Shown here piece by piece: positions 2,939-21,219 of a stretch of 22,840 bases of DNA (position 1 is the first letter of the stretch; the number at the start of each line of letters is the position of its first letter). The DNA is from a virus. The stretch is taken from positions 1 through 22,840 of IMG/VR virus record IMGVR_UViG_3300032797_000050. One strand, written 5' to 3'. The notes under the pieces are model-generated. The model saw nothing but the letters and a program-made list of their open reading frames with translations, was not told the DNA's origin and did no database searches. A program made the position numbers and the translations under genes.

Positions 2939-3583
2939 CTATGGTTTAGATACGGGAATCATGGCTTTAAGTTTGGCAATTTTAGCTTCTAGTTCTTTTA
3001 TTTTGCGAGAGCGTCCGTCTTGAAAACCTTTGGCAAAGCCGTCTGAATATCCCTTGTTGTGATCTGAGGCATGGTTATTCTTAGTCGTTAGTTCCAAGTT
3101 ACTCAATTCGTTATTAGATTTGTTGCCGTCCTTATGGTGGACGGTTTCCCAGGGTTGGAGACATCGTCCCATTGATTGTGCCATGACAAGCCGGTGTTCA
3201 AATACATACCCCTCGATATTGGCCATAGAATAGTAATGATCATCAGACTTCAACTTAATCTTGATATAGCCAGTCGCACACACTACACGACCGCCTTTCC
3301 AATTAGACCTGACACAATGACGGCATACTCTTGTCTCCGGCTTGCCCTTAACAAATCTTACCCAGCGTTCTTTGCCACACCCCTCACAGGGCAGTAGGAC
3401 AAATAGGTTCGTATCTGCTGGCCTGCCAATATCACGACCTCTAGTAACCAAGTGACCTTCATATTCAGTAGGTAACTGTGCCAGTGGTCTCCCCCCTGAC
3501 TTCCCTATATCGCTATAATGAGACGGCCCATGCCTTCGGAATGTTTCAAGTCCACCGATTCTGCCACCTTCCTTCTTATCCAT
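2939..3583 (-). CDS. HNH endonuclease with KGG N-terminus and zinc ribbon
   Basis: 214 residues. Residues 4-33 hold a KGG/GsiB-like unit (GGRIGGLETFRRHG, then SDIGKSGGRP). A zinc ribbon follows (C66/C69 in PCEGCGKERWV, C87/C90 in VCRHC). The HNH nuclease core includes NWKGGR, EHRLVMAQSMGRCLQPWETV (129-148) and HHKDGNKSNNELSNLEL, with catalytic H149/H150 and a conserved Asn near 162. The C-terminus is a basic coiled coil (KIKELEAKIAKLKAMI). No SD precedes the ATG at 3583; the promoter's -10 lies only 7 bases upstream, so the message is probably leaderless. The stop leaves about 60 bases before the helix-turn-helix gene. Likely a free-standing homing endonuclease. Confidence 0.92.
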   Translation of the reverse strand: MDKKEGGRIGGLETFRRHGPSHYSDIGKSGGRPLAQLPTEYEGHLVTRGRDIGRPADTNLFVLLPCEGCGKERWVRFVKGKPETRVCRHCVRSNWKGGRVVCATGYIKIKLKSDDHYYSMANIEGYVFEHRLVMAQSMGRCLQPWETVHHKDGNKSNNELSNLELTTKNNHASDHNKGYSDGFAKGFQDGRSRKIKELEAKIAKLKAMIPVSKP

Positions 3584-5112: not shown

Positions 5113-6003
5113 TTAGCCCAATATATCCGAGCCGTCTAATTCGCTGCTGTCTAAGATAAAAATACTTGGCTCTTCCGAAGGTCTGACTTGCTCTAGGTGC
5201 CAGATTGCTTCTAAGAGTCCTTCAGAATCGTGGGATGGATTTATCGAGTTAATAAAGAAATCATCCGCAATCCCTAGAATTGTATGATTTATTGTTATTC
5301 TATCTGAAATCTTCCTTGTCAGAATCTGCGTGACCAAATCATCAGTGCTGCCCTGAATCCTGACCGTAAGAAGAGGGACGGGCTCTTTATGCCTCTCCAA
5401 ATACCCGTCTACTAAACTTTGAGTTTGTTCTATAGATTGTCCAAGCGGCCAGACTAAATTCATCACTCTGCGGCCGTATTTTTGGATGCTCGTATCATCG
5501 GTTGAGCGAACAAGAATCGTTCTTTCAGAAAGATAGCGATATGCAATTTCAATACGCCATCGCAATGTTAAGTAAGGATGATTATTCGTGACCTCAAAGG
5601 TAAAACTGTAGTCTGTGCGTTCAATTTCCTCGACTGTTAGATACTCTGTCATACTACCGAAGGTACACATTCCACCTAGAACATTTTTCCACGTCCCGCC
5701 TAAAGTGGAACATTCAGCCTGAGAGATTTCTGTTATTGTCTCCCCAACTGCACTGACATCGGTTATTTCCAACCATGTTATTTCCGTATCTCCGCTATCA
5801 GGATGAACGGTAATCTGTTGCGTAACTCCTGCGCCGATTTGTGGAGGATAGTCACATCTATTAGGCCGAATTGTCTTTGTCGAGTAAGCTTCCTCGAATC
5901 CTTCAGTATCACTTGTCTGTGACCTAACATCGTTGTAAATCTCTCTGTCATTATATTCGAGAGTAATATCCGCCATTGTATCCGTGAAAGTCGCTACACT
6001 CAT
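5113..6003 (-). CDS. Tail hub protein, C-terminal section as separate gene
   Basis: 296 residues; ATG at 6003 overlaps the previous stop (ATGA). The N-terminus (ATFTDTMADITLEYNDREIY, then NDVRSQ) is normally found inside a single large siphovirus tail/hub protein, directly after a segment like the last 35 residues of the preceding gene. Later motifs fit the same family: LVDGYLERHKEPVPLLTVRI and TRKISDRITINHTILGIADD. Cysteines at about 138 and 151 (AECSTLGGTWKNVLGGMCTF) lie in a small insert. The split into genes is discussed in the findings. Function: tail-tip hub or tail-associated structural protein. Confidence 0.7.
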   Translation of the reverse strand: MSVATFTDTMADITLEYNDREIYNDVRSQTSDTEGFEEAYSTKTIRPNRCDYPPQIGAGVTQQITVHPDSGDTEITWLEITDVSAVGETITEISQAECSTLGGTWKNVLGGMCTFGSMTEYLTVEEIERTDYSFTFEVTNNHPYLTLRWRIEIAYRYLSERTILVRSTDDTSIQKYGRRVMNLVWPLGQSIEQTQSLVDGYLERHKEPVPLLTVRIQGSTDDLVTQILTRKISDRITINHTILGIADDFFINSINPSHDSEGLLEAIWHLEQVRPSEEPSIFILDSSELDGSDILG

Positions 6004-6737
6004 GGATTCCTCGCATAGCGGGATTCGTATTTAGCGTTCCCTTCCTCGTCTATGTAAAACCTTCCCCTAGCTCCCATTTCGATATTGCGGATAGCTTCTA
6101 GGGTAACGATGTCCTGCACGGGTTTTGCTTCACGGGGGGATAAGTCCTCACTATAGAAATCAGAAGTCACTTGCCATCCATTGTAGCCATCGAAATGGTC
6201 TCTTGTGGCTGAAAATTGCCACTTGCATCTGGCATGACCCAAAGGGCAAGCGGTTGAACCAGTGAGGAAAAGGTAATTAGTCGGTAGTACCTCAGGCTCT
6301 GCCGCCTCCCATAAGTGATAATGGTATCTTTTGCCGCCGCCATCTATATGCCAACTTGGTTCCAAAGTTTCGATATATTGTTCGGCACTAATACTGGTTG
6401 CTACAAACCAACCACTCCTTAAGGAACTATAGCAATCTGTATGGCCGGAGGCACAAAGACCCGGTATCGCCCTTGGAACTATGTCAGAATCAAGTACTAA
6501 AATTGCTTTCACCTGATGAGTATGGTGCAGGCTATCTCCAATTTGGCTCGTCGTTAGATTTTGAACTGAGCCTGGAATAGGGATAGAAATGGTGCTAACT
6601 CCACTCTTCATTTGGCATAAATAATGCCCCGAAGGACAATTCTGCAAAATGCCAAACCAGCCACCTGCAGCAGGACCTACTATCGTTAAATCATGTGAAA
6701 AGGGATAAAATTGATAAGTGTGATAATGCTGTGTCAT
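6000..6737 (-). CDS. Tail hub middle section with three CxxGHxxC repeats
   Basis: 245 residues from the ATG at 6737, which has SD GAGG at proper spacing; a TTG start at 6752 overlapping the upstream gene is possible but less likely. Residues 1-200 contain three repeats, each opening with a His cluster (HYHTYQ at 4, HHTHQV at 71, YHYHLW at 138) and reaching CPSGHYLC (34-41), CASGHTDC (95-102) and CPLGHARC (164-171). Residues 210-245 (VTLEAIRNIEMGARGRFYID, then EEGNAKYESRYARNP) match the part of siphovirus hub proteins that precedes 'ATFSDT' in the next gene. So a His/Cys module appears placed into a hub protein. Metal binding is inferred; no function is known to me. Confidence 0.65.
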   Translation of the reverse strand: MTQHYHTYQFYPFSHDLTIVGPAAGGWFGILQNCPSGHYLCQMKSGVSTISIPIPGSVQNLTTSQIGDSLHHTHQVKAILVLDSDIVPRAIPGLCASGHTDCYSSLRSGWFVATSISAEQYIETLEPSWHIDGGGKRYHYHLWEAAEPEVLPTNYLFLTGSTACPLGHARCKWQFSATRDHFDGYNGWQVTSDFYSEDLSPREAKPVQDIVTLEAIRNIEMGARGRFYIDEEGNAKYESRYARNP

Positions 6738-6748
6738 AGGGATATTCC

Positions 6749-7303
6749 TCAATATGGATGAGTCGCAGGATAATTTAACAAATCATCCCCTCCATTTGTG
6801 TCTATATTCCGTCTTGTCGGACTCCAACCCGCAGCGTCTAATACTCTCTCGATAGCTTCGCCATCTGATATTGAATCCGTATCTTCGGGGTCTTGTGTTA
6901 TCATTTGACGAGCTAATAAGTCAGTCCCATCCGTCACGTATAAAATCACGGTTTGTCTATCAGGGCGGGGGTCTACCTTGATACTGGAAATGAAACCAAA
7001 GAAGACGGGATATTCAACCGCATTATGCGTCGCTCTTATCCTCACCGTCAGCCAAGGACGGATTCTGTCATAATATGGACTCGCCACATTATAAGGTGAA
7101 TAGTCAGCACACAGCCCAGCTTTCAGTCTAATTTGCAGAGTCGCAGCGGGAGCGTTCCCTTCCTCTGTTTCCTTTCCCCTGACAGTCTCGATATAAGAAA
7201 CGTCATCGGAAATATCATCATCTCCACTGAAAACAGGGTCATGAGCCCAGTTCGTAGCATCCCAATCTACCATGACTTCGTAGCTTATACTTGATAGCGT
7301 CAT
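6749..7303 (-). CDS. Tail hub protein, N-terminal section as separate gene
   Basis: 184 residues; ATG at 7303 overlaps the tape measure stop (ATGA). VMVDWDATNWAHDPVFSGDD and DVSYIETVRGKETEEGNAPA are the N-terminal signature of siphovirus hub proteins with a gp27/distal-tail-like beta barrel, followed by ATLQIRLKAG, SPYYDRIRPWLTVRIRATHN, YPVFFGFISSIKVDP and VTDGTDLLARQ. In related phages the chain continues past 'LDAAGW...IDTNGGDDLLN' into the 'FYID' segment; here it stops at PATHPY. Directly follows the tape measure gene, as tail-tip genes do. Confidence 0.72.
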   Translation of the reverse strand: MTLSSISYEVMVDWDATNWAHDPVFSGDDDISDDVSYIETVRGKETEEGNAPAATLQIRLKAGLCADYSPYNVASPYYDRIRPWLTVRIRATHNAVEYPVFFGFISSIKVDPRPDRQTVILYVTDGTDLLARQMITQDPEDTDSISDGEAIERVLDAAGWSPTRRNIDTNGGDDLLNYPATHPY

Positions 7304-9958: not shown

Positions 9959-10381
9959 TTAACCTCCTTTGATTTTTATCTCAAAAAATGTACGAACTGA
10001 GAAGTAATTTGGTATCTCATCCTGTAAATCTTGCCCCTGTACCTCCTCTCTTGCTGAAAGGATATAGTAGGTATTTGCGCCAACTACTACCGGTGTGTAT
10101 GCGTCATAATACCCACCTATCCCCTGCAAGCAATCAAACAATGATCTGTAAATTGTTCTTGCATCAATGGGATCGTCGTCCCAGCAATCGAATTGAACAG
10201 ACGGACTTACGATACCGTCTACTATAGGGAGAGCTGTCCCTCCCCTTGTTAGGAATGTTATATTTGGAAGGACAGCGTTCTCCGGTGCTCGGGGGCAGTA
10301 GATTCTATTCGTCACTAAAGCCGCCACAGGTTGAGTTAATAGATAGGCTCTTATTATTGTATTCGTATCCGGCAAACTCAT
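9959..10381 (-). CDS. Tail terminator / tail completion protein (DUF3168-like)
   Basis: 140 residues; ATG 10381 overlaps the HNH stop (ATGA) and the gene ends 2 bases before the tail tube start. LPDTNTIIRAYLLTQPVAAL, VTNRIYCPRAPENAVLPNIT and SVQFDCWDDDPIDARTIYRS are characteristic of the small alpha/beta tail terminator proteins that cap the tail tube. Position between the gp10-like gene and the tail tube is conserved for this role. Because the HNH gene lies just upstream, translation here may be coupled to it. Confidence 0.8.
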   Translation of the reverse strand: MSLPDTNTIIRAYLLTQPVAALVTNRIYCPRAPENAVLPNITFLTRGGTALPIVDGIVSPSVQFDCWDDDPIDARTIYRSLFDCLQGIGGYYDAYTPVVVGANTYYILSAREEVQGQDLQDEIPNYFSVRTFFEIKIKGG

Positions 10382-10992
10382 AATTTTTCTCCAATCACTC
10401 GGTTTAATTCGATTTTAAGTGCCCTGTTTTCCTCTTGAAGTCGCTTTATCTTATTCTGCATAATGGTCAGTTGATTGTGATTATTAATCAATTCAAGGGA
10501 AAGATTTTCTATACGGTTATCATCCCTGACCCCATTTTTATGATGAACTATCTCCCAAGGTAATAAGCATCGCCCTATATATTTTGCCATTACAAGGCGA
10601 TGCTCTTTTATCCTTCCGTGAAATGCCATCGGATAGAAGAAATCATCGGGTCGAATCCATATTTCTATGTATCCCTTAACTGTCTTATGTCTTCCACCCT
10701 TCCAGTTATAGGCATTTTCACCTCTAATACTTGCTTTTCGTTCCTCATTCCAGTGTGTACCCTTCTTTTTCCTACCAGCCTGCCTATATTTCTCTCTTGT
10801 TTCCTCAGTAAGAATTTTGGCTTTATTACCACACTCAACACAAAGAGTTCTAATCGCCTTCCCATTCCTGATAGCTACCCATCTTTCAAGACCACACCTC
10901 GCACAGGATTGCCAGATAAATTTATGGTATTGGTCTGCTTTGTTAGTTCTGCCAATCTCTAATCCCTTTTTAATTTCCCCTAGTTCTACCAT
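10378..10992 (-). CDS. HNH homing endonuclease inserted in the head-tail module
   Basis: 204 residues. Zinc ribbon (C30/C33 in SCARCGLERWV, C51/C54 in LCVECG), then a GENAYNWKGGRHKTVKGYIE segment, EHRLVMAKYIGRCLLPWEIV (130-149) and HHKNGVRDDNRIENLSLE with catalytic H150/H151 and conserved Asn near 163, then a coiled coil (174-199). The layout equals that of the HNH gene at 2939 without its KGG unit. It interrupts an otherwise standard gene order (gp10-like, tail terminator), overlaps its downstream neighbour by only four bases and carries its own promoter. It probably cuts phages lacking it at this locus (inference from homing endonucleases). Confidence 0.92.
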   Translation of the reverse strand: MVELGEIKKGLEIGRTNKADQYHKFIWQSCARCGLERWVAIRNGKAIRTLCVECGNKAKILTEETREKYRQAGRKKKGTHWNEERKASIRGENAYNWKGGRHKTVKGYIEIWIRPDDFFYPMAFHGRIKEHRLVMAKYIGRCLLPWEIVHHKNGVRDDNRIENLSLELINNHNQLTIMQNKIKRLQEENRALKIELNRVIGEKL

Positions 10993-13064: not shown

Positions 13065-15908
13065 CTAATATCTCCTCAACCAATCTAAGTCTTTTCTCTC
13101 ATGCTCGGCATACCAACCCTTCCCATGCAAATCCTGCACCTTCATAAAGTATTCCTGATACTTCGGAGCAATCACATCCATAGAGTAATTAGCAACTGCA
13201 TACTCTCTACAGCGCTTCGGACTTATCTTGTCTATATTCCTCGCTGCCCACAGGAAGTCGTCCATTGTATGACATCTATATCCAACCTCACCTTGTAAAA
13301 CAATCTCCGGGAAACTGCCCCAGTCTGTCGTTATCACTGGAGTCCCACATAATAAAGCCTCCACAACGACTAACCCGAAGGGTTCAAAGTATAACGAAGG
13401 TGTTATAACCGCTCTAGCGTTCCTTAGGAGCTCGTTACGGCTCTTCAAATCTACCGTGCCTATATATTCCACATGAGGCTGTAAGAGTCCTAAATCCTTG
13501 AGACATTGTTTATCATCAGGATAAAGAGGCTGCCCAGCGACAATTAACTTCGCTCCCAATCGCTTTGTAATATCGGCAACGATATGAATACCTTTCCGTT
13601 TAATCAGTCTCCCGATGTAAACATAGTGGTCGCCCTTCTTTTCCTGAAAGGTGAAGTCATCAGGGTCGAAGAAATGAGGTATAACAGCGTCATACCAATT
13701 TCCACTAGCGAAGTTTTCGGCTTTTGTCTTTGCTGATAACGCCCTAGCCTCGCACCTTCTCCCTGCCATGTGGTGCATCCAGGCGTAAGACGGGAACACT
13801 TTATATTTAGAGTAGTATCCAATGTATCCTACTATCGGCTCGATAGCCTGCATTGACGGAAAGGCATTGCTAATCTCAGCCATCCAAGAACCGTTGGAAA
13901 TGAGAAGCATATCTTTCGGCTCGGCTCGTTTCTTAATTTCTTCAATGGCATTCTTGCGGAAGGTTCGGTAGGCTAAATCTTGACCGTTGTGAATCCATAA
14001 TTGTTTTCTGGAATCCCAGTCTCCATATGCTTCCTTTTGAACCGCCTGAGTCAGAACATCTATGTGTTCGGTGCATTGAAGCTCACTACCCTCTGTTCCA
14101 TAATGATAGACCTCATGTCCCAGATTTGTGAGCATTGTCGAGAGTCTATAAACGAGTTGTGTGAAGGCACACATCGTCTCTTCCTTTCGGGTTATCGCAT
14201 GAGGTAAACCGAGAAGGTGAAACCTAAAGTGGTCAGTCTTTGGGGTAGAAATTGGAACCTGTTTAGGTCGCTTTTCTACTTTCAATAATTGAGCCTTCAG
14301 CCTCCCAAACTTTCGTGGGTAAAGGTCAGTCTCAGGCATCACCTGACATTGATAATCATTTGTTAGCTCGTTCTTAATGAAGTACGACCCTATGAAAGGC
14401 ATCTCATCGCAGTAGTCATCGAAATAGACGACTGTATCATCCTTCATTAGTTTAGATGAATATTGCCAATCGCTACGAGTTGTCTCGATAGTATGCCCAC
14501 CATCTATGTAGATTAAATCCATCTTGGGAAGAGAGTCTATATATTGAGGGAGAGTCTTGCGGGAATTGCCCTTAAATAGCGTTATGCGGGCTCTAGTGGC
14601 ACTTTCTAGTCTTTGCCTTACTTCTTCTATGGTCGGGACTTTATTAGTCTGGAAACTCCACTCCTCGTCTCTTAATTGAGGAGTCATCTCCTCAAACAGG
14701 TCAAATCCGTAGAATCTAATCTCTTCTTCGGGTACTTTCTTGGCAGCTTCCTTAATCATGGCTACGGCGGATGCCCCATCAAATACGCCAATCTCCATGA
14801 TGTTTCTACATTGTTTCTCTGATAGTGTCCTGAAAAGAGGTCTATAATGCTTCCTGTAATCGGTTAGCCATGTCTCCGAAGGTGTTTTTTCTAGCATATA
14901 GATAACTCTCCTTCCATTGAACCTGTTCGCAACCTTCATGTCGGTATTCTGTTCTATTTCTTTTATGGACTCCGGGGTGTGAAAGTCATACTTTGGATAA
15001 GGGTCTTTACCCCATCCCCTCTCATTCTGATTATTAGGCACTTCCATGAAGATTAGATTAGCCTTGTCTCTAAGAAGTTGTAGCTTTTCTAATCCCTTCT
15101 CAATGCCGATTGTTTTCATGTCGTTATGAATCACAGCTAAGAAGAGGATGGTATCATATACGACACCGTTTAGAGATTCCGACCAGTCTTTCACCAAATG
15201 GTAATCAACCTTCAAATTTTGAAGGACTGTCAAGTATCTCGCAGCAGCGATTAACCCCTTAGAACGGTCAATGGCGGTTACTTCATAACCTCTTTTTGAG
15301 AGTTCCCTTGAGTAGTATCCTTCAGAGCAACCGATGTCTAAAACTCGTTTGCCGTTCAGATTTTTGAGTATATACTCCAATCTTTGAGCAGCATCATAGC
15401 GGTCAACCTTCCAGCCCTTTAATCTGGAATCCTCTACTGGCTGATAAGTCCACTTGCCTTGTGGAGCTTCTTTTAGTAAAACTTCTTCTAGAGGAAAGTC
15501 CTTATGAAACTTCCCATCATATCTATCTTTCCAATTCGTCTCACAGTTTAGAAGAATGTCCTGATTGAGATAATGTAAGATTGCTACTCGGTGGAAGCCG
15601 TCTCCTAAGTGAATAAACCCTTCCTCATCGAACCAGATGTAAATTGTAGAGCCGTTGTAGCCACTCTTTAGGCTTTCATATAGGTCTATAATCTGCTGCT
15701 GTCTCTCGTAAGCGGACTCTATCGTATTGCCTTTATCGAAACAGTAGGCATGGTGCTTCCATTGGGTCGCTTTTATGAACGGGGAGTCGGTTAAATCCTC
15801 TCCTCTATCATACATAGCAAGCATTTCCTGGACGGGTTTCTCTATCGGCTTGCCTGTTATGTAGGACTTATCGGCAGGTAACAGGGAGCTTCTAATTTGG
15901 TATTTCAT
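13065..15908 (-). CDS. Four-domain fusion: ParB-like, two methyltransferases, GT4 glycosyltransferase
   Basis: 947 residues. Domain 1 (about 1-125) has the ParB/sulfiredoxin-fold motif GDGFHR (102-107). Domain 2 (150-340) is a class I SAM methyltransferase with VLDIGCSEGYYS (189-200) and is similar along its length to the separate 206-residue methyltransferase. Domain 3 (350-545) is a second, different methyltransferase-like fold: MEIGVFDGAS (371-380), YGFDLFEE and YIDGGHT (467-473), like Methyltransf_24/macrocin O-methyltransferases. Domain 4 (560-930) is a GT-B glycosyltransferase of GT4 type with IGRLIKRKG (765-773) and EPFGLVVVE, the E-x7-E motif (842-850). ATG 15908 overlaps the upstream gene by 17 bases. 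Its GT and methyltransferases probably act on a glycan; the target is inferred from the adjacent collagen-like fibre. Confidence 0.88.
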   Translation of the reverse strand: MKYQIRSSLLPADKSYITGKPIEKPVQEMLAMYDRGEDLTDSPFIKATQWKHHAYCFDKGNTIESAYERQQQIIDLYESLKSGYNGSTIYIWFDEEGFIHLGDGFHRVAILHYLNQDILLNCETNWKDRYDGKFHKDFPLEEVLLKEAPQGKWTYQPVEDSRLKGWKVDRYDAAQRLEYILKNLNGKRVLDIGCSEGYYSRELSKRGYEVTAIDRSKGLIAAARYLTVLQNLKVDYHLVKDWSESLNGVVYDTILFLAVIHNDMKTIGIEKGLEKLQLLRDKANLIFMEVPNNQNERGWGKDPYPKYDFHTPESIKEIEQNTDMKVANRFNGRRVIYMLEKTPSETWLTDYRKHYRPLFRTLSEKQCRNIMEIGVFDGASAVAMIKEAAKKVPEEEIRFYGFDLFEEMTPQLRDEEWSFQTNKVPTIEEVRQRLESATRARITLFKGNSRKTLPQYIDSLPKMDLIYIDGGHTIETTRSDWQYSSKLMKDDTVVYFDDYCDEMPFIGSYFIKNELTNDYQCQVMPETDLYPRKFGRLKAQLLKVEKRPKQVPISTPKTDHFRFHLLGLPHAITRKEETMCAFTQLVYRLSTMLTNLGHEVYHYGTEGSELQCTEHIDVLTQAVQKEAYGDWDSRKQLWIHNGQDLAYRTFRKNAIEEIKKRAEPKDMLLISNGSWMAEISNAFPSMQAIEPIVGYIGYYSKYKVFPSYAWMHHMAGRRCEARALSAKTKAENFASGNWYDAVIPHFFDPDDFTFQEKKGDHYVYIGRLIKRKGIHIVADITKRLGAKLIVAGQPLYPDDKQCLKDLGLLQPHVEYIGTVDLKSRNELLRNARAVITPSLYFEPFGLVVVEALLCGTPVITTDWGSFPEIVLQGEVGYRCHTMDDFLWAARNIDKISPKRCREYAVANYSMDVIAPKYQEYFMKVQDLHGKGWYAEHERKDLDWLRRY

Positions 15909-16353
15909 ACTTCGTTACGAGTTTATCCTTTGCTGAATCCAATAATTCCACAATAGACGGATTGAAGTTCTCCATGAACCAGTCCCTTGATAGAAACTGC
16001 TTTCTTCTCCCGCCGGTGACCTGAACAGGAATACTCTCTAGATTGAGAGCCATCGCACAACAGAACCTATGTCTGCCGTCTCCTATCCAATAGTCCTCTT
16101 GTACTCTGATCGGACTGCACTCAAGGAAGCCTTCAGCCTTCATACGCTTCATCAAGCCCTTAATTCGCTTCCAACTTCCAATATGCCAACCCAGTTTGAC
16201 GACTTTAGAACCCAGTTCCTCGTAGTATCTCTCGTAATCCTCGTTATCTTCGCAATCTACGATTGATTCAAAGACAATGTAGTAATATAAACACTCGTAT
16301 CTCTTGAAGTCACCATCACGGCATTGGAGTCTAAATAAAGTTGCAAGTTCCAT
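15892..16353 (-). CDS. ParB/sulfiredoxin-fold protein
   Basis: 153 residues. The motif IGDGRHRFCCAMALNLESIP at 91-110 matches the nucleotide-binding GxxRxxA signature of ParB-like domains. The N-terminal half is helical (ECLYYYIVFESIVDCEDNED) and a helix of basic and aromatic residues precedes the motif. The start overlaps the methyltransferase end by about 23 bases (ATG 16353; TTG 16356 is also possible). The same domain type opens the next gene's 947-residue protein. ParB-like domains may act as CTP switches, nucleases or, in the serine kinase SerK, as kinases; which applies is unknown. In this setting a non-partitioning role is likely. Confidence 0.7.
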   Translation of the reverse strand: MELATLFRLQCRDGDFKRYECLYYYIVFESIVDCEDNEDYERYYEELGSKVVKLGWHIGSWKRIKGLMKRMKAEGFLECSPIRVQEDYWIGDGRHRFCCAMALNLESIPVQVTGGRRKQFLSRDWFMENFNPSIVELLDSAKDKLVTKYEIPN

Positions 16354-16951
16354 CAAGTATGAAAATGATTCTTCGGAACCGAGCCGAGTCTATAATTCTC
16401 AATCCGGTAGCATCCTCAACCCTTTTCCGAGATTCCTTTACGTTGAAGTCCAGATAATCAGGAGTGTTTCTTTCCTTTATCCCCCCAGGTACTTCAAAGA
16501 ACAATCTATTTACTCTTCCTCTGAACGAATTGAGCTTTCTTAAAGTTCCCTCTATGCCTAACCTCTTCACTTCATTGTGAAACACGCTTAGATAAAGGAC
16601 ATTATCGAACTGATCCATAATGTCAACCCAGTCTCCGGCGTAACAAGTAACGTCTAATCCTTCTGTCAAGTACTTCGCAACCTCAATAATATTCGATCTG
16701 TTATCAACCGCCGTCACCTTAAACCCCAACTTCGCTATCTCGCGACTGAAGTAACCTTCAGCACAGCCAATGTCTAAGACTGTTTTCCCTACCAGGTTTT
16801 CAGTGATGTACTTCAGTCTTTCGGGAGAATCCTTGCGGGATACTTCCCAATCATCTAATACTGGTTGATAGGTTTTTCTACCGCAAGGTCGCTCTTTTTG
16901 TAGTATCTCAATAAGGTGAGAATCCATTATTAGGTTTTTTGCTCCTGCCAT
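16331..16951 (-). CDS. Class I SAM-dependent methyltransferase
   Basis: 206 residues, SD AAAGGAGATAA. Motif I is VLDIGCAEGYFS (58-69), with the acidic residue after beta-2 in VTAVDNRSN (79-87) and NVLYLSVFHN (117-126) as motif IV. The leading segment GRKTYQPVLDDWEVSRKDSP matches a segment of the 947-residue protein (GKWTYQPVEDSRLKGWKVDR), so the two are paralogues. Ten bases separate it from the fibre gene. A sugar or protein O-methylation role is inferred from neighbours; no DNA-methylase catalytic motif (DPPY/NPPY) is present. Confidence 0.85.
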   Translation of the reverse strand: MAGAKNLIMDSHLIEILQKERPCGRKTYQPVLDDWEVSRKDSPERLKYITENLVGKTVLDIGCAEGYFSREIAKLGFKVTAVDNRSNIIEVAKYLTEGLDVTCYAGDWVDIMDQFDNVLYLSVFHNEVKRLGIEGTLRKLNSFRGRVNRLFFEVPGGIKERNTPDYLDFNVKESRKRVEDATGLRIIDSARFRRIIFILDGTCNFI

Positions 16952-16961
16952 TTATCTCCTT

Positions 16962-19703
16962 TTAGGTTGCCATTATTAAGTAAGTTAGCAAATAAGTGTC
17001 AACAGTTGACCCGAATATAGTTTGTGTTGCACCACTGCCATTATAAACACCAACACTAATCAAGTCATTGACACTCAGAAGGAATATCCCAGATGTAAAT
17101 GTTGTGAGGCCTGAGTAGTTATGCGAACTGTGGAAGTATGCAGCCTGTATATTAACTTCATTTTTGGATATTATGGGGAGATAGAACTTATCAGCCACGA
17201 TGGTTCCTCCGTGCCAGGTCATTGAAACCCCTATAAAGTAGTATCCAGCTACGGGTACTTTATACGCTGCCTTGGTAATCGTATAGTAATAATTATTGGC
17301 AAAATTATCACCAGTGGTTTTTTGAATAGTAAGGTTTGAAGCATCAACTACGGCAGTTACATACCCCTTGCCAGTGTTTAGAGTTCCATTCCAGTCGCTT
17401 GACCATGTTACCCTACAGTTCTTCAATCCGTTAGTTTGTCCTGTTATAGTTTGGAAATTAACACTTGTATCCCTAATATTGGTCGCTGTGCAGTTGTTGG
17501 CATCGGCTTGCTCTTGGTTATAGTATTTGCCTGTCTGGAAGTTACTGCCTAAATCAAAGTTACTTGTATTCAATTCAATTCTGGCATAGTTTAATGCGGC
17601 GGGAATATCATCTTGGTCAGAACTCATATAATATCTACAGAAGGTAGTATTGGGGTGTATGGATGTTTTTAGTTGAACATTATGGTTACTATATAGAATA
17701 GTATTTGCCCCTGCTCCATGAACGCCTGTGGTGGCAACTCCATGGTCATACATCACATTGGAAGTTGGTGCTTTGGTCGTTTCTCCGTCAGTGCCACCTG
17801 CGGTATTGTCAAGAGAAACAGCAGGACCGCTCGGTCCTGACGGTCCGCTAGGTCCGCTAGGTCCAGTCGCATTTACACCTGTTGGACCACTCGGGCCTGA
17901 TGGTCCACTAGGCCCTGTAGCGTTCACGCCTGTCGGACCTGAAGGACCGCTTGGACCAGAAGGTCCTGAAGGTCCACTCGGCCCTGAAGGGCCTGATGGG
18001 CCTGACGGCCCTGTCGCATTGACCCCTGTTGGCCCTGACGGACCCGAAGGGCCTGAGGGGCCTGAAGGTCCAGTTGTACCAGCGCCTGTCGGACCACTTG
18101 GCCCACTGGGTCCTGAAGGACCTGTTGCTCCAGCTCCTGTCGGTCCTGAAGGGCCTGACGGGCCTTTTTCTACCAGTAAATCCCAATAAGTTGTCCAACT
18201 TCCGCCTACTCCTGGTTCATCGCCAGCAGCAGAGGTATGACCTAGAATACAGACATATCCGCTTCCGTCATTCTCAACACAATCATTAACTTGATATGTA
18301 GTTGATACTACCCAGGGGCCTTCCCAAGTAAACTCAGTTCCAGTGGGTCCTGAGGGTCCTGATGGTCCGCTAGGCCCTGAGGGACCAGTAGCATTCACTC
18401 CTGTAGGACCGCTAGGACCGGACGGTCCTGACGGGCCACTAGGCCCCGAAGGGCCCGTAGCATTAACACCTGTTGGACCTGACGGCCCTGATGGACCGCT
18501 GGGTCCCGATGGACCAGATGGCCCGGTTGCGTTCACACCAGTTGGACCGGATGGTCCAGACGGGCCACTCGGTCCTGAGGGACCAGAAGGTCCTGTTGAG
18601 TTGACACCCGTTGGTCCTGAAGGACCAGACGGCCCCGACGGGCCACTTGGACCAGATGGACCAGTTGCATTAACTCCAGTAGGGCCAGATGGACCAGACG
18701 GTCCTGAGGGTCCTGACGGGCCAGTAGCATTTACTCCTGTTGGTCCAGACGGTCCTGAGGGACCAGACGGACCAGAGGGTCCACTAGGTCCACTAGGACC
18801 TGTACTGCCCACTCCAGTTGGACCCGAAGGGCCAGATGGTCCTGATGGTCCACTGGGGCCAGTAGCGTTTACCCCAGTCGGGCCAGATGGGCCAGACGGG
18901 CCTGAAGGGCCCGAAGGACCTGTAACTGATGCTGATCCTGCTGGCCCAGACGGTCCACTTGGACCATGGGGTCCTGATGGGCCACTCGGACCAGTCGAAC
19001 CTGGAGTTCCTACTCCAGTCGGCCCAGACGGGCCTGACGGTCCAGAGGGACCTGACGGCCCGGTAGAACCTGCACCTGTCGGGCCACTGGGTCCTGATGG
19101 ACCACTGGGTCCTGACGGACCGGATGGCCCAGAAATACTAACACCTGACGGCCCCGATGGGCCACTTGGCCCTGAAGGACCGCTAATTCCAACTCCTGTG
19201 GGACCTGACGGCCCCGACGGACCAGAAGGGCCACTTGGACCTGATGCACCTGCTCCGGTTGGACCCGAAGGCCCGCTTGGTCCACTAGGCCCACTAACCC
19301 CAGCACCAGTAGGCCCACTCGGGCCTGATGGCCCTGAAGGGCCTGTTGCATTTACTCCAGTAGGACCGGAGGGTCCGCTAGGACCACTCGGGCCTGATGA
19401 GCCAGTTCCACCAACCCCGGTTGGTCCACTAGGACCTGAAGGACCACTGGGTCCGCTTGGTCCACTGGGACCGCTGGGACCAGATGGTCCACTAGGGCCA
19501 CTGGGGCCGCTAGGTCCTGAGGGTCCAGTTGCCCCTGATGGGCCTGTAACGCCAGGTCCACCACCAGCCATTGCTATCTTAAGATTAGCTCCTGTGATTT
19601 TCTTGGTCTGGTCAGGGGTGGCTTCTGTATCTACAATAGCAAATAAATCAGCATCAGCAACCGTAACCTTTGCATCAAGTTCACTTATTCTTTGATCGGC
19701 CAT
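16962..19703 (-). CDS. Collagen-like fibre with C1q/TNF-like C-terminal head
   Basis: 913 residues; SD GAGGATGAAAT. Residues 1-47 ([20 protein letters not shown], then [17 protein letters not shown]) are a phage fibre anchor motif. Residues about 48-453 and 512-628 are Gly-Pro-Ser/Thr collagen triplets with [12 protein letters not shown] blocks. Between them (about 454-511) sits a globular module, [20 protein letters not shown], resembling carbohydrate-binding/chitin-binding type 3 modules. Residues 629-913 form a head whose end ([52 protein letters not shown]) reads as a C1q-like domain, with an about 75-residue insert (DTSVNFQT..., [13 protein letters not shown]). A trimeric virion fibre, probably receptor binding, is likely. 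Adjacent GT and methyltransferases may modify its Ser/Thr. Confidence 0.9.
17820..18170 (-). repeat. Collagen-triplet coding repeats, second block
   Basis: Tandem nine-base units coding Gly-Pro-Ser (with Gly-Pro-Thr at block ends) near the C-terminal head of the fibre. Synonymous codons vary widely between units (GGA/GGT/GGC, CCT/CCC/CCA), so selection on protein rather than simple slippage probably maintains the repeat. Ends are approximate. Confidence 0.85.
18343..19560 (-). repeat. Collagen-triplet coding repeats, main block
   Basis: About 400 codons of Gly-X-Y, mostly GPS, broken periodically by GPTGVNATG or GPTGAGxxG. Units differ in synonymous codons. Because GGN-CCN is self-complementary in pattern, the opposite strand also reads Gly-Pro triplets without stops. 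Confidence 0.85.
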
Positions 19704-20082: not shown

Positions 20083-21219
20083 CTAGACAGCACTTAACTG
20101 TCCGTAAGTTGCTCGCCATTCGAGCCTGTTGCATCCAAAGACATCCCTCACGCGGTAGAACACGTTATCAGTAGCGAAGTCTCCAGTCATAGGAGAAATC
20201 TCGCCACCGCCAATGTTCACCTTGTCGGAAGCCTTCATGCAGATTTCGGGTCTCTCATGCCCGGTTAAGTAGTCGCATTCCATAGCTGCTATATCCTTCG
20301 GGTCTGCAAACAGGAACCACGAAAGAACAGCGTTAGGAGCGAAGATAGGAATGTACGGGTCTACTACTAATTGCAGTCCGTACTGAGAGACTACATTAGT
20401 CGTTGGATAAGGAACTGGCGTACCTCCAGCCCCTAATGTCTGCCATTCCAGCCACATCTTAGTAGCTGAACTCAGGATTTGTCGTGCTGTGAACTCCAAG
20501 CCGGGGCCGACTACGAGATATTTAGCTCGATTCATTATCGGCTCGCCATTGGCATCCGTAAACGCAGCCATCGCCTCACAAGTGTTCTCAAGATTGGCGA
20601 TAGTCAGAGGGAGCGCGCCGGAGTTGGCATTCGCAGCAGCATACAGATTCGCAGCACCTACGAGGTCAGCCACATATACCCCTGTAACCAGCCGATGCTC
20701 AGTCCGTATCGCAGCACGGGCAAATCTCTCTGGGGTGTCCTTTAAGGCACCGAGGTCATCATTTACCAGGGCTTCCCACGAGATGTCGAACTGTCGCCCG
20801 TATTTCTTGACATAGCAAGCGTAACGAGCTTCGTTCCTCTCACTTGCTAAATACTCGCCCTTCTCGGCGACTTCCTCTAAGTGCTGATCGCCCCCGGTGA
20901 TACCGAACCGATATCCACCTATTTGAGGGAAGATTCTCGGCACGGTTCCCATTCTAACAAAAGCCTTCCAAACAGGGTCAACTGCTTTGTAAGCAGCCAA
21001 TACCTGTCTATCTAAGACATCGCCGAACAGGTAAGGAAAGTCGCTCGTGGTCAGAGCCTCACGCAGCATGAACTCGTGCCTGTGAGGTGAATAACCCTTC
21101 GCGTTCGACAAAAGGTCAAGCGTTTCCTTCAGTTTAATATCATAGTTTTCTGGTTTCTTTGTTTCTGAGAGGGCAAAATACCCATCCCAGGATTTCATAG
21201 TCTCTAAAAGATCAGACAT
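20083..21219 (-). CDS. Major capsid protein (HK97-fold)
   Basis: 378 residues with SD AAGGAGGTTTAGAA. The N-terminal helical part (MSDLLETMKSWDGYFALSET) leads to HEFMLREALTTSDFPYLFGD, VLDRQVLAAY and VDPVWKAFVRMGTVPRIFPQ. The later body has EKGEYLASERNEARYACYVK, FDISWEALVNDDLGALKDTP and KYLVVGPGLEFTARQILSSA. These match the Mu gpT-type branch of HK97-fold capsid proteins. No N-terminal scaffold of typical length is visible, so a separate scaffold or protease would be upstream. Decoration-type proteins precede it and a strong hairpin follows it. Confidence 0.9.
   Translation of the reverse strand: MSDLLETMKSWDGYFALSETKKPENYDIKLKETLDLLSNAKGYSPHRHEFMLREALTTSDFPYLFGDVLDRQVLAAYKAVDPVWKAFVRMGTVPRIFPQIGGYRFGITGGDQHLEEVAEKGEYLASERNEARYACYVKKYGRQFDISWEALVNDDLGALKDTPERFARAAIRTEHRLVTGVYVADLVGAANLYAAANANSGALPLTIANLENTCEAMAAFTDANGEPIMNRAKYLVVGPGLEFTARQILSSATKMWLEWQTLGAGGTPVPYPTTNVVSQYGLQLVVDPYIPIFAPNAVLSWFLFADPKDIAAMECDYLTGHERPEICMKASDKVNIGGGEISPMTGDFATDNVFYRVRDVFGCNRLEWRATYGQLSAV

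Follow-up and report, generated by a model that had tools for sequence, protein, structure and literature searches.

In skunaviruses, carbohydrate-binding inserts in the tail-tip protein Dit, a neighbour of the hub, have been shown experimentally to aid adsorption (PMC10688798). Split hubs of the lambda and RcGTA type contain an Fe-S site, and the R4C hub contains an oligosaccharide-binding domain as well (PMC10721106, PMC10276861). In lambda, gpL, gpI and gpJ share the corresponding domains between them, and the Fe-S cluster is in gpL (PMC10721106). The tube of T5 and of the GTA is closed by a large insertion in hub domain II (PMC10038345). T4 gp37 has established iron sites of the HxH kind, as reported in PMC11705849. 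We describe here a tail hub divided over three genes, the middle one of which carries a His- and Cys-containing domain.

The window analyzed is the whole stretch of 22,840 nucleotides of a 22.8-kb record from an uncultured virus. Its minus strand carries structural genes for capsid, tail terminator, tail tube and tape measure, followed by the three genes that we call hub N-part, middle gene and C-part. The capsid gene (20083-21219, minus) matches Pfam Phage_capsid_4. Among isolates, its product is closest to that of the Methanoculleus viruses Blf4/L4768 (39%); the relatives of the hub, by contrast, were met in genomes of Chloroflexota and in a phage of Microcystis. A collagen-like protein of 913 amino acids with GPS repeats and a CBM_5_12-like stretch (E 1.5e-5) is encoded at 16962-19703 (minus), and its gene adjoins methyltransferase and glycosyltransferase genes (13065-15908, 16331-16951) whose products might decorate it. 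Three HNH_3 endonuclease genes (1716-2306, 2939-3583 and 10378-10992, all minus), one of them between the head and tail genes, probably encode free-standing homing endonucleases. The features of the hub locus are as follows.

6749 to 7303, minus: hub N-part gene, encoding hub domain I and the first part of hub domain II (from the AF2 model and PDB matches); ends ...LLNYPATHPY-TGA
6746 to 6750, minus: GAGGA, Shine-Dalgarno-like site of the middle gene; overlaps the stop codon of the N-part
6000 to 6737, minus: middle hub gene (cargo and hub strip), 245 amino acids, ATG start
6123 to 6737, minus: cargo, residues 1-205, threefold HxH and CxxGHxxC module (from the motif search; a similar module occurs in L018 and L019)
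6720 to 6728, minus: unit 1 HYH, residues 4-6
6615 to 6638, minus: unit 1 CPSGHYLC, residues 34-41 (DNA pattern search)
6516 to 6527, minus: unit 2 HHTH, residues 71-74
6432 to 6455, minus: unit 2 CASGHTDC, residues 95-102 (DNA pattern search)
6315 to 6326, minus: unit 3 YHYH, residues 138-141
6225 to 6248, minus: unit 3 CPLGHARC, residues 164-171 (DNA pattern search)
6003 to 6122, minus: strip of conserved hub sequence, KPVQDIVTLEAIRNIEMGARGRFYIDEEGNAKYESRYARNP, making up the second half of hub domain II and aligning to residues 228-258 of the Mae-JY09 hub
6009 to 6012, minus: GAGG, Shine-Dalgarno-like site of the C-part, in the last strip codons (GCGAGGAAT, kept in several relatives)
5113 to 6003, minus: hub C-part gene, the rest of the hub (from sequence and profile); its start overlaps the middle-gene stop by 4 bases

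The AF2 model of the N-part (pLDDT 75) was compared with the PDB. By Foldseek, matches at E<=1e-3 were to hubs and VgrG-type spikes only, and the top ones were baseplate hubs of contractile injection systems and phages. The PDB matches as a whole were tail hubs, tube proteins and VgrG-type spikes, including T4 gp27, phi812, HFTV1 and T5 pb3, and VIA gave Z values of 8-10 to these four. The alignment to gp27 covers gp27 residues 4-166, so by the domain limits of gp27 the N-part ends within hub domain II. Taken together, the three genes encode a tube-like domain I followed by domain II, as in hubs of the gp27/pb3 type.

The single-chain hub of the Microcystis phage Mae-JY09 (432 amino acids) aligns with the N-part, the strip and the C-part in that order. 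The N-part is aligned up to residue 221 of this hub (E=3e-15), and residues 213-243 of the middle gene match it with E=1e-4, leaving about 7 residues between the two matches. The C-part, found by profile at residues 305-430, gives a weaker match (E=0.0015), so that the collinearity of the three genes with single-chain phage hubs is less firm at this end. The middle gene thus consists of a cargo of about 205 residues and a conserved hub strip of about 40. N-part and strip follow each other on one chain in four Chloroflexota single-chain hubs as well (three clear, one weak with E 0.005), and a fifth Chloroflexota hub, L036, matches the N-part only. Cargo is absent between N-part and strip in the Mae-JY09 hub and in these four. 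Because the two elements adjoin in single-chain hubs, the cargo interrupts two normally adjacent elements of hub domain II. An earlier note on this DNA, made from the sequence alone, had placed the module in a tail hub at a site where hub proteins usually continue without interruption. The fold of the N-part and the collinearity bear out the hub context, and the single-chain hubs bear out the site. The claim of an insert needs amendment, as the cargo is not inserted in frame but lies in a gene of its own with an ATG and a Shine-Dalgarno-like site. A second extra hub domain was seen at residues ~28-168 of the C-part (gene at 5113-6003, minus); it contains SQAECSTLGGTW...GGMC and has no counterpart in the Mae-JY09 hub.

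Relatives of the locus were collected by N-part search and by strip search. The N-part stop lies at the same place in eleven relatives and is TGA, TAA or TAG across the family. The next ATG stands no more than about 30 bases further on, and a Shine-Dalgarno-like site often accompanies it. Where the C-part start is readable, in eight relatives, it overlaps the middle-gene stop by 1 or 4 bases. We considered stop-codon recoding or readthrough across the three genes and rejected it. At the junction of N-part and middle gene, TGA, TAA and TAG are each found with a new ATG after them; this excludes recoding, and the split of the hub is real. That the three products reassemble into one hub is what the collinearity suggests.

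The cargo was reported in the earlier note as three copies of a unit with a His cluster and an exact CxxGHxxC. The three motifs are present at residues 34, 95 and 164, with C-to-C spacings of 61 and 69 as it had given, and the clusters HYH, HHTH and YHYH occur one per unit, each CxxGHxxC lying about 25 residues past an HxH. As a DNA pattern, CxxGHxxC has 3 matches in the window against 0.05 expected, and none of 100 shuffles had 3 matches. Among 200,000 shuffles of the 245-residue middle protein, none contained at least two CxxGHxxC. Each unit has two Cys and three His; all six cysteines of the middle protein are inside the three motifs, and there is no CxxC. When the units were aligned pairwise with the motif residues masked, Z was -0.9 to 0.6, i.e. 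there was no measurable likeness outside the motif. Thus motif and spacing recur, as described in the earlier note, but the sequence itself is not repeated, and a recent triplication at the DNA level was rejected since the units are unlike one another outside the motif. An AF2 model of the cargo, computed with three sequences as input, had a pLDDT of 30 and was discarded.

Viral contigs were scanned twice for two CxxGHxxC motifs 159-189 bases apart (the first of them CP). Each scan gave one match, L018 (3182-4087) and L019 (2328-3227), and both are real. Two further profile scans of the viral contigs for the module returned L019 only. The modules of L018 and L019 each have three HxH and three C-x6-C pairs at distances similar to those in the window; from HxH to C there are 21-31 residues. 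Both lie directly behind a hub that the N-part profile of the window fails to recognize, and both run on into a repeated YIDxxGxER region in place of the hub strip. This partner region is itself repeated about three times (YIDxxGxERxxEG; L018:3790-4087, L019:2328-2640), and that of L019 weakly resembles hypothetical proteins of the Thermus phages Cumys and phiMa. Matches of L019 to Thermus phages were not accepted as relatives of the module, as they involve only the C-terminal region of L019. Raw alignments of module pairs gave Z of 8-17 against shuffles, falling to 0.2-2.3 with the motif residues masked; for the window and L019 the values were 16.6 and 1.1. Almost only the His, Cys and Gly of the motif are conserved among the three module proteins, which are the only examples known and all come from fragmentary metagenomic records. 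On these alignments, the likeness of the modules rests on the motif and would fit either common descent or convergence on the same pattern.

HxH and C-x6-C are kept in 9/9 units and CxxGHxxC in 8/9. The exception is unit 1 of L018, CDIHDQTC, whose site may be lost or altered; this is the one place with the variation of Cys and His among homologues that the earlier note took as speaking against its module. Since conservation stops at the His, Cys and Gly of the motif, and recurs three times along each of three divergent chains, the units appear to be organized by metal. The same conservation lends indirect support to the earlier proposal of a metal-binding or disulfide-stapled module. Zinc is the commonest metal for such Cys/His sets, and iron is possible. 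The metal of the cargo would probably be zinc.

The second half of that proposal leads to an alternative which also sees an exchangeable adhesion module here, with C-x6-C forming disulfide staples and the histidines binding ligand instead of a structural metal. Virion proteins are extracellular, and the cysteines of the cargo occur only in three pairs, as staples would have it. A plain disulfide is nevertheless less fitting, because it would require neither the Gly-His nor the upstream HxH, which the homologues keep. We regard this alternative as unlikely, though worth keeping in mind. In another arrangement, the three HxH of one chain would meet on an axis as a six-His iron site, making a single-chain pseudo-trimer of what T4 gp37-type tips build from three chains. 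All three module proteins carry exactly three HxH in the cargo, which agrees with this arrangement, as do the established gp37 sites. It leaves the equally conserved CxxGHxxC unexplained, and we consider it quite improbable. Least probable of all is that the hub carries a zinc enzyme, such as a hydrolase of the wall or capsule. Conserved residues rich in His and Cys and the location on the hub would suit an enzyme; three like sites per chain, the lack of a family match and the freedom of the sequence between the motifs to diverge would not.

Relatives with N-parts about 50-56% identical keep the split but differ in cargo, which is GLUG, FN3-like, DNRLRE-like or without match. GLUG repeats were found by Pfam (E 2e-11 to 2e-17) in L005, L007, L009, L010 and L015, and GLUG cargo was assigned by likeness in L008, L011 and L013. 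The cargo of L016 is FN3-like by a match to Pur_ac_phosph_N below the cut-off (E 0.001), and that of L003 is DNRLRE-like by a weak match (E 0.03). L001 has a long domain and an FN3-like one, judged by eye and without a family match. By BLASTN between these loci and the window, N-part and strip are similar at the DNA level and the cargo is not. On the N-part tree three changes of the GLUG label are needed, most forks being weakly supported. These comparisons show, at the level of sequence, exchange of cargo in the middle-gene slot. In L014 (4579-4797), a second partial copy of the N-part 3' end stands past the N-part stop and before the GLUG cargo; it has a one-base slip in a G run, and its DNA is 77% identical to L007 and hardly similar to L014's own N-part. 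A scar left by recombination during cargo exchange would look like this, as would an assembly chimera.

The exchange bears on the main functional rival to adhesion, in which the cargo is a plug or gate closing the tail tube, like the hub domain II insertion of T5 pb3 and lambda gpI, and its metal sites would compare with the Fe-S site of gpL. The T5, GTA and lambda precedents described above speak for it, as in the window too hub domain II holds the insertion and the hub is split. However, the slot is filled in close relatives by unlike domains of ~100 to ~590 residues, which is ill-suited to a fitted plug in the lumen. In T5 and lambda, the insertion begins close to where domain I ends (T5 residue ~160); in the window, by contrast, about 58 residues come between domain I and the cargo. 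The ligand pattern differs from that of lambda gpL, and in L018 and L019 the module lies in a gene behind a different hub. Because unlike domains are exchanged freely in the slot, we disfavour the plug and consider it improbable.

We prefer to see the middle gene as an exchangeable accessory module of the hub, carrying a metal-organized threefold domain that faces the host and aids adsorption; we put the probability of this reading at about 0.55. The last ~40 residues of the middle gene would complete hub domain II, and the three products would rebuild one hub of the gp27 type. The N-terminal ~205 residues would leave the hub at this point as a host-facing domain of three ~65-residue units, each probably held by one metal ion, most likely zinc, bound by an HxH pair and the CxxGHxxC of the same or a neighbouring unit. 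The remaining surface would thereby be free to diverge. The cargo would most likely bind a structure on the host surface, a glycan or an S-layer or sheath, and lineages would swap cargo by recombination in the conserved flanking hub sequence. We infer the adhesion role from the place of the cargo, its exchange, the GLUG and FN3-type cargo of relatives, the carbohydrate-binding domains of a related hub and the precedent of evolved Dit. The related hub, L039 from a Chloroflexota genome, is a single chain of 1140 amino acids with four CBM_4_9 domains, one of them shortly behind hub domain I.

The cargo matched no solved or catalogued family in Pfam, NCBIfam or the PDB, and nothing in the phage and plasmid collections. 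Comparison of the N-part, the C-part and the cargo with sequence profiles of the PDB gave nothing convincing; one match, to Reticulon-4 (E 0.7), was put down to chance. No relative was found in genome contigs with the N-part profile, and the A5 profile had no match in 400 Chloroflexota genomes. Seven genome-contig matches to two spaced CxxGHxxC lay in unrelated or closed frames, with no HxH pattern or third motif, and were discarded as chance. In the literature searched, CxxGHxxC was not found written in the forms tried; this speaks only weakly for novelty.

A small Cys/His domain family without a database name is thus found behind unrelated hubs. Tentatively, it may be an undescribed family of metal-organized recognition domains. 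Each chain would have three minimal units that keep HxH and CxxGHxxC fixed and leave nearly all other residues free. Unrelated viruses would exchange the domains, and in this lineage they would be supplied by a middle gene that can be replaced within the three-gene hub; metal, or the redox state of the cysteines, might then be needed for host binding or act as its switch. With the hub cut into three genes, a presumably host-facing domain can be exchanged as a gene-sized cassette where the tail tip is most conserved. If the metal reading is true, the scaffold is very compact with nearly all surface residues variable, which would be useful in understanding the host range of uncultured viruses.

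Compared with known systems, the locus resembles evolved Dit/Tal proteins and the carbohydrate-binding inserts of skunaviruses and P335 phages in having a variable domain in a conserved tail-tip protein. It differs from evolved Dit in that the cargo is in the hub, in its own gene together with part of the hub fold, and is a His/Cys module that matches no known carbohydrate-binding fold. Like lambda gpL-gpI-gpJ and the hub and megatron of RcGTA and R4C, it has hub domains over consecutive genes. Those hubs are split after domain I, whereas the split in the window is inside hub domain II, the second half of which is carried by the middle gene. The iron site of lambda gpL uses C173, C182, C205 and C212 and no His; the cargo has no such four-Cys [4Fe-4S] pattern but a threefold HxH and CxxGHxxC in place of the four Cys of gpL and RcGTA, and kinship with the gpL iron-binding domain was rejected on this difference. 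T5 pb3 also has a large insertion at hub domain II, but it is a single chain whose insertion begins near the end of domain I and closes the tube. The recurrent HxH in a phage tail protein, three per chain in the window, recalls the iron tips of the T4 gp37 type; those are trimeric fibre tips, whereas the window pairs HxH with CxxGHxxC in a hub-attached domain. The eight-residue CxxGHxxC also resembles the central knuckle of RING-type zinc domains (a C-x-x-G-H-x-x-C half site), and L019 has a weak Sina_RING match below the cut-off (E=0.002). Unlike a RING cross-brace with its eight Cys/His ligands, the cargo has HxH instead of the flanking CxxC pairs. An exchangeable accessory domain in the tail tip is a kind already known, of which this Cys/His hub cargo is a new variant.
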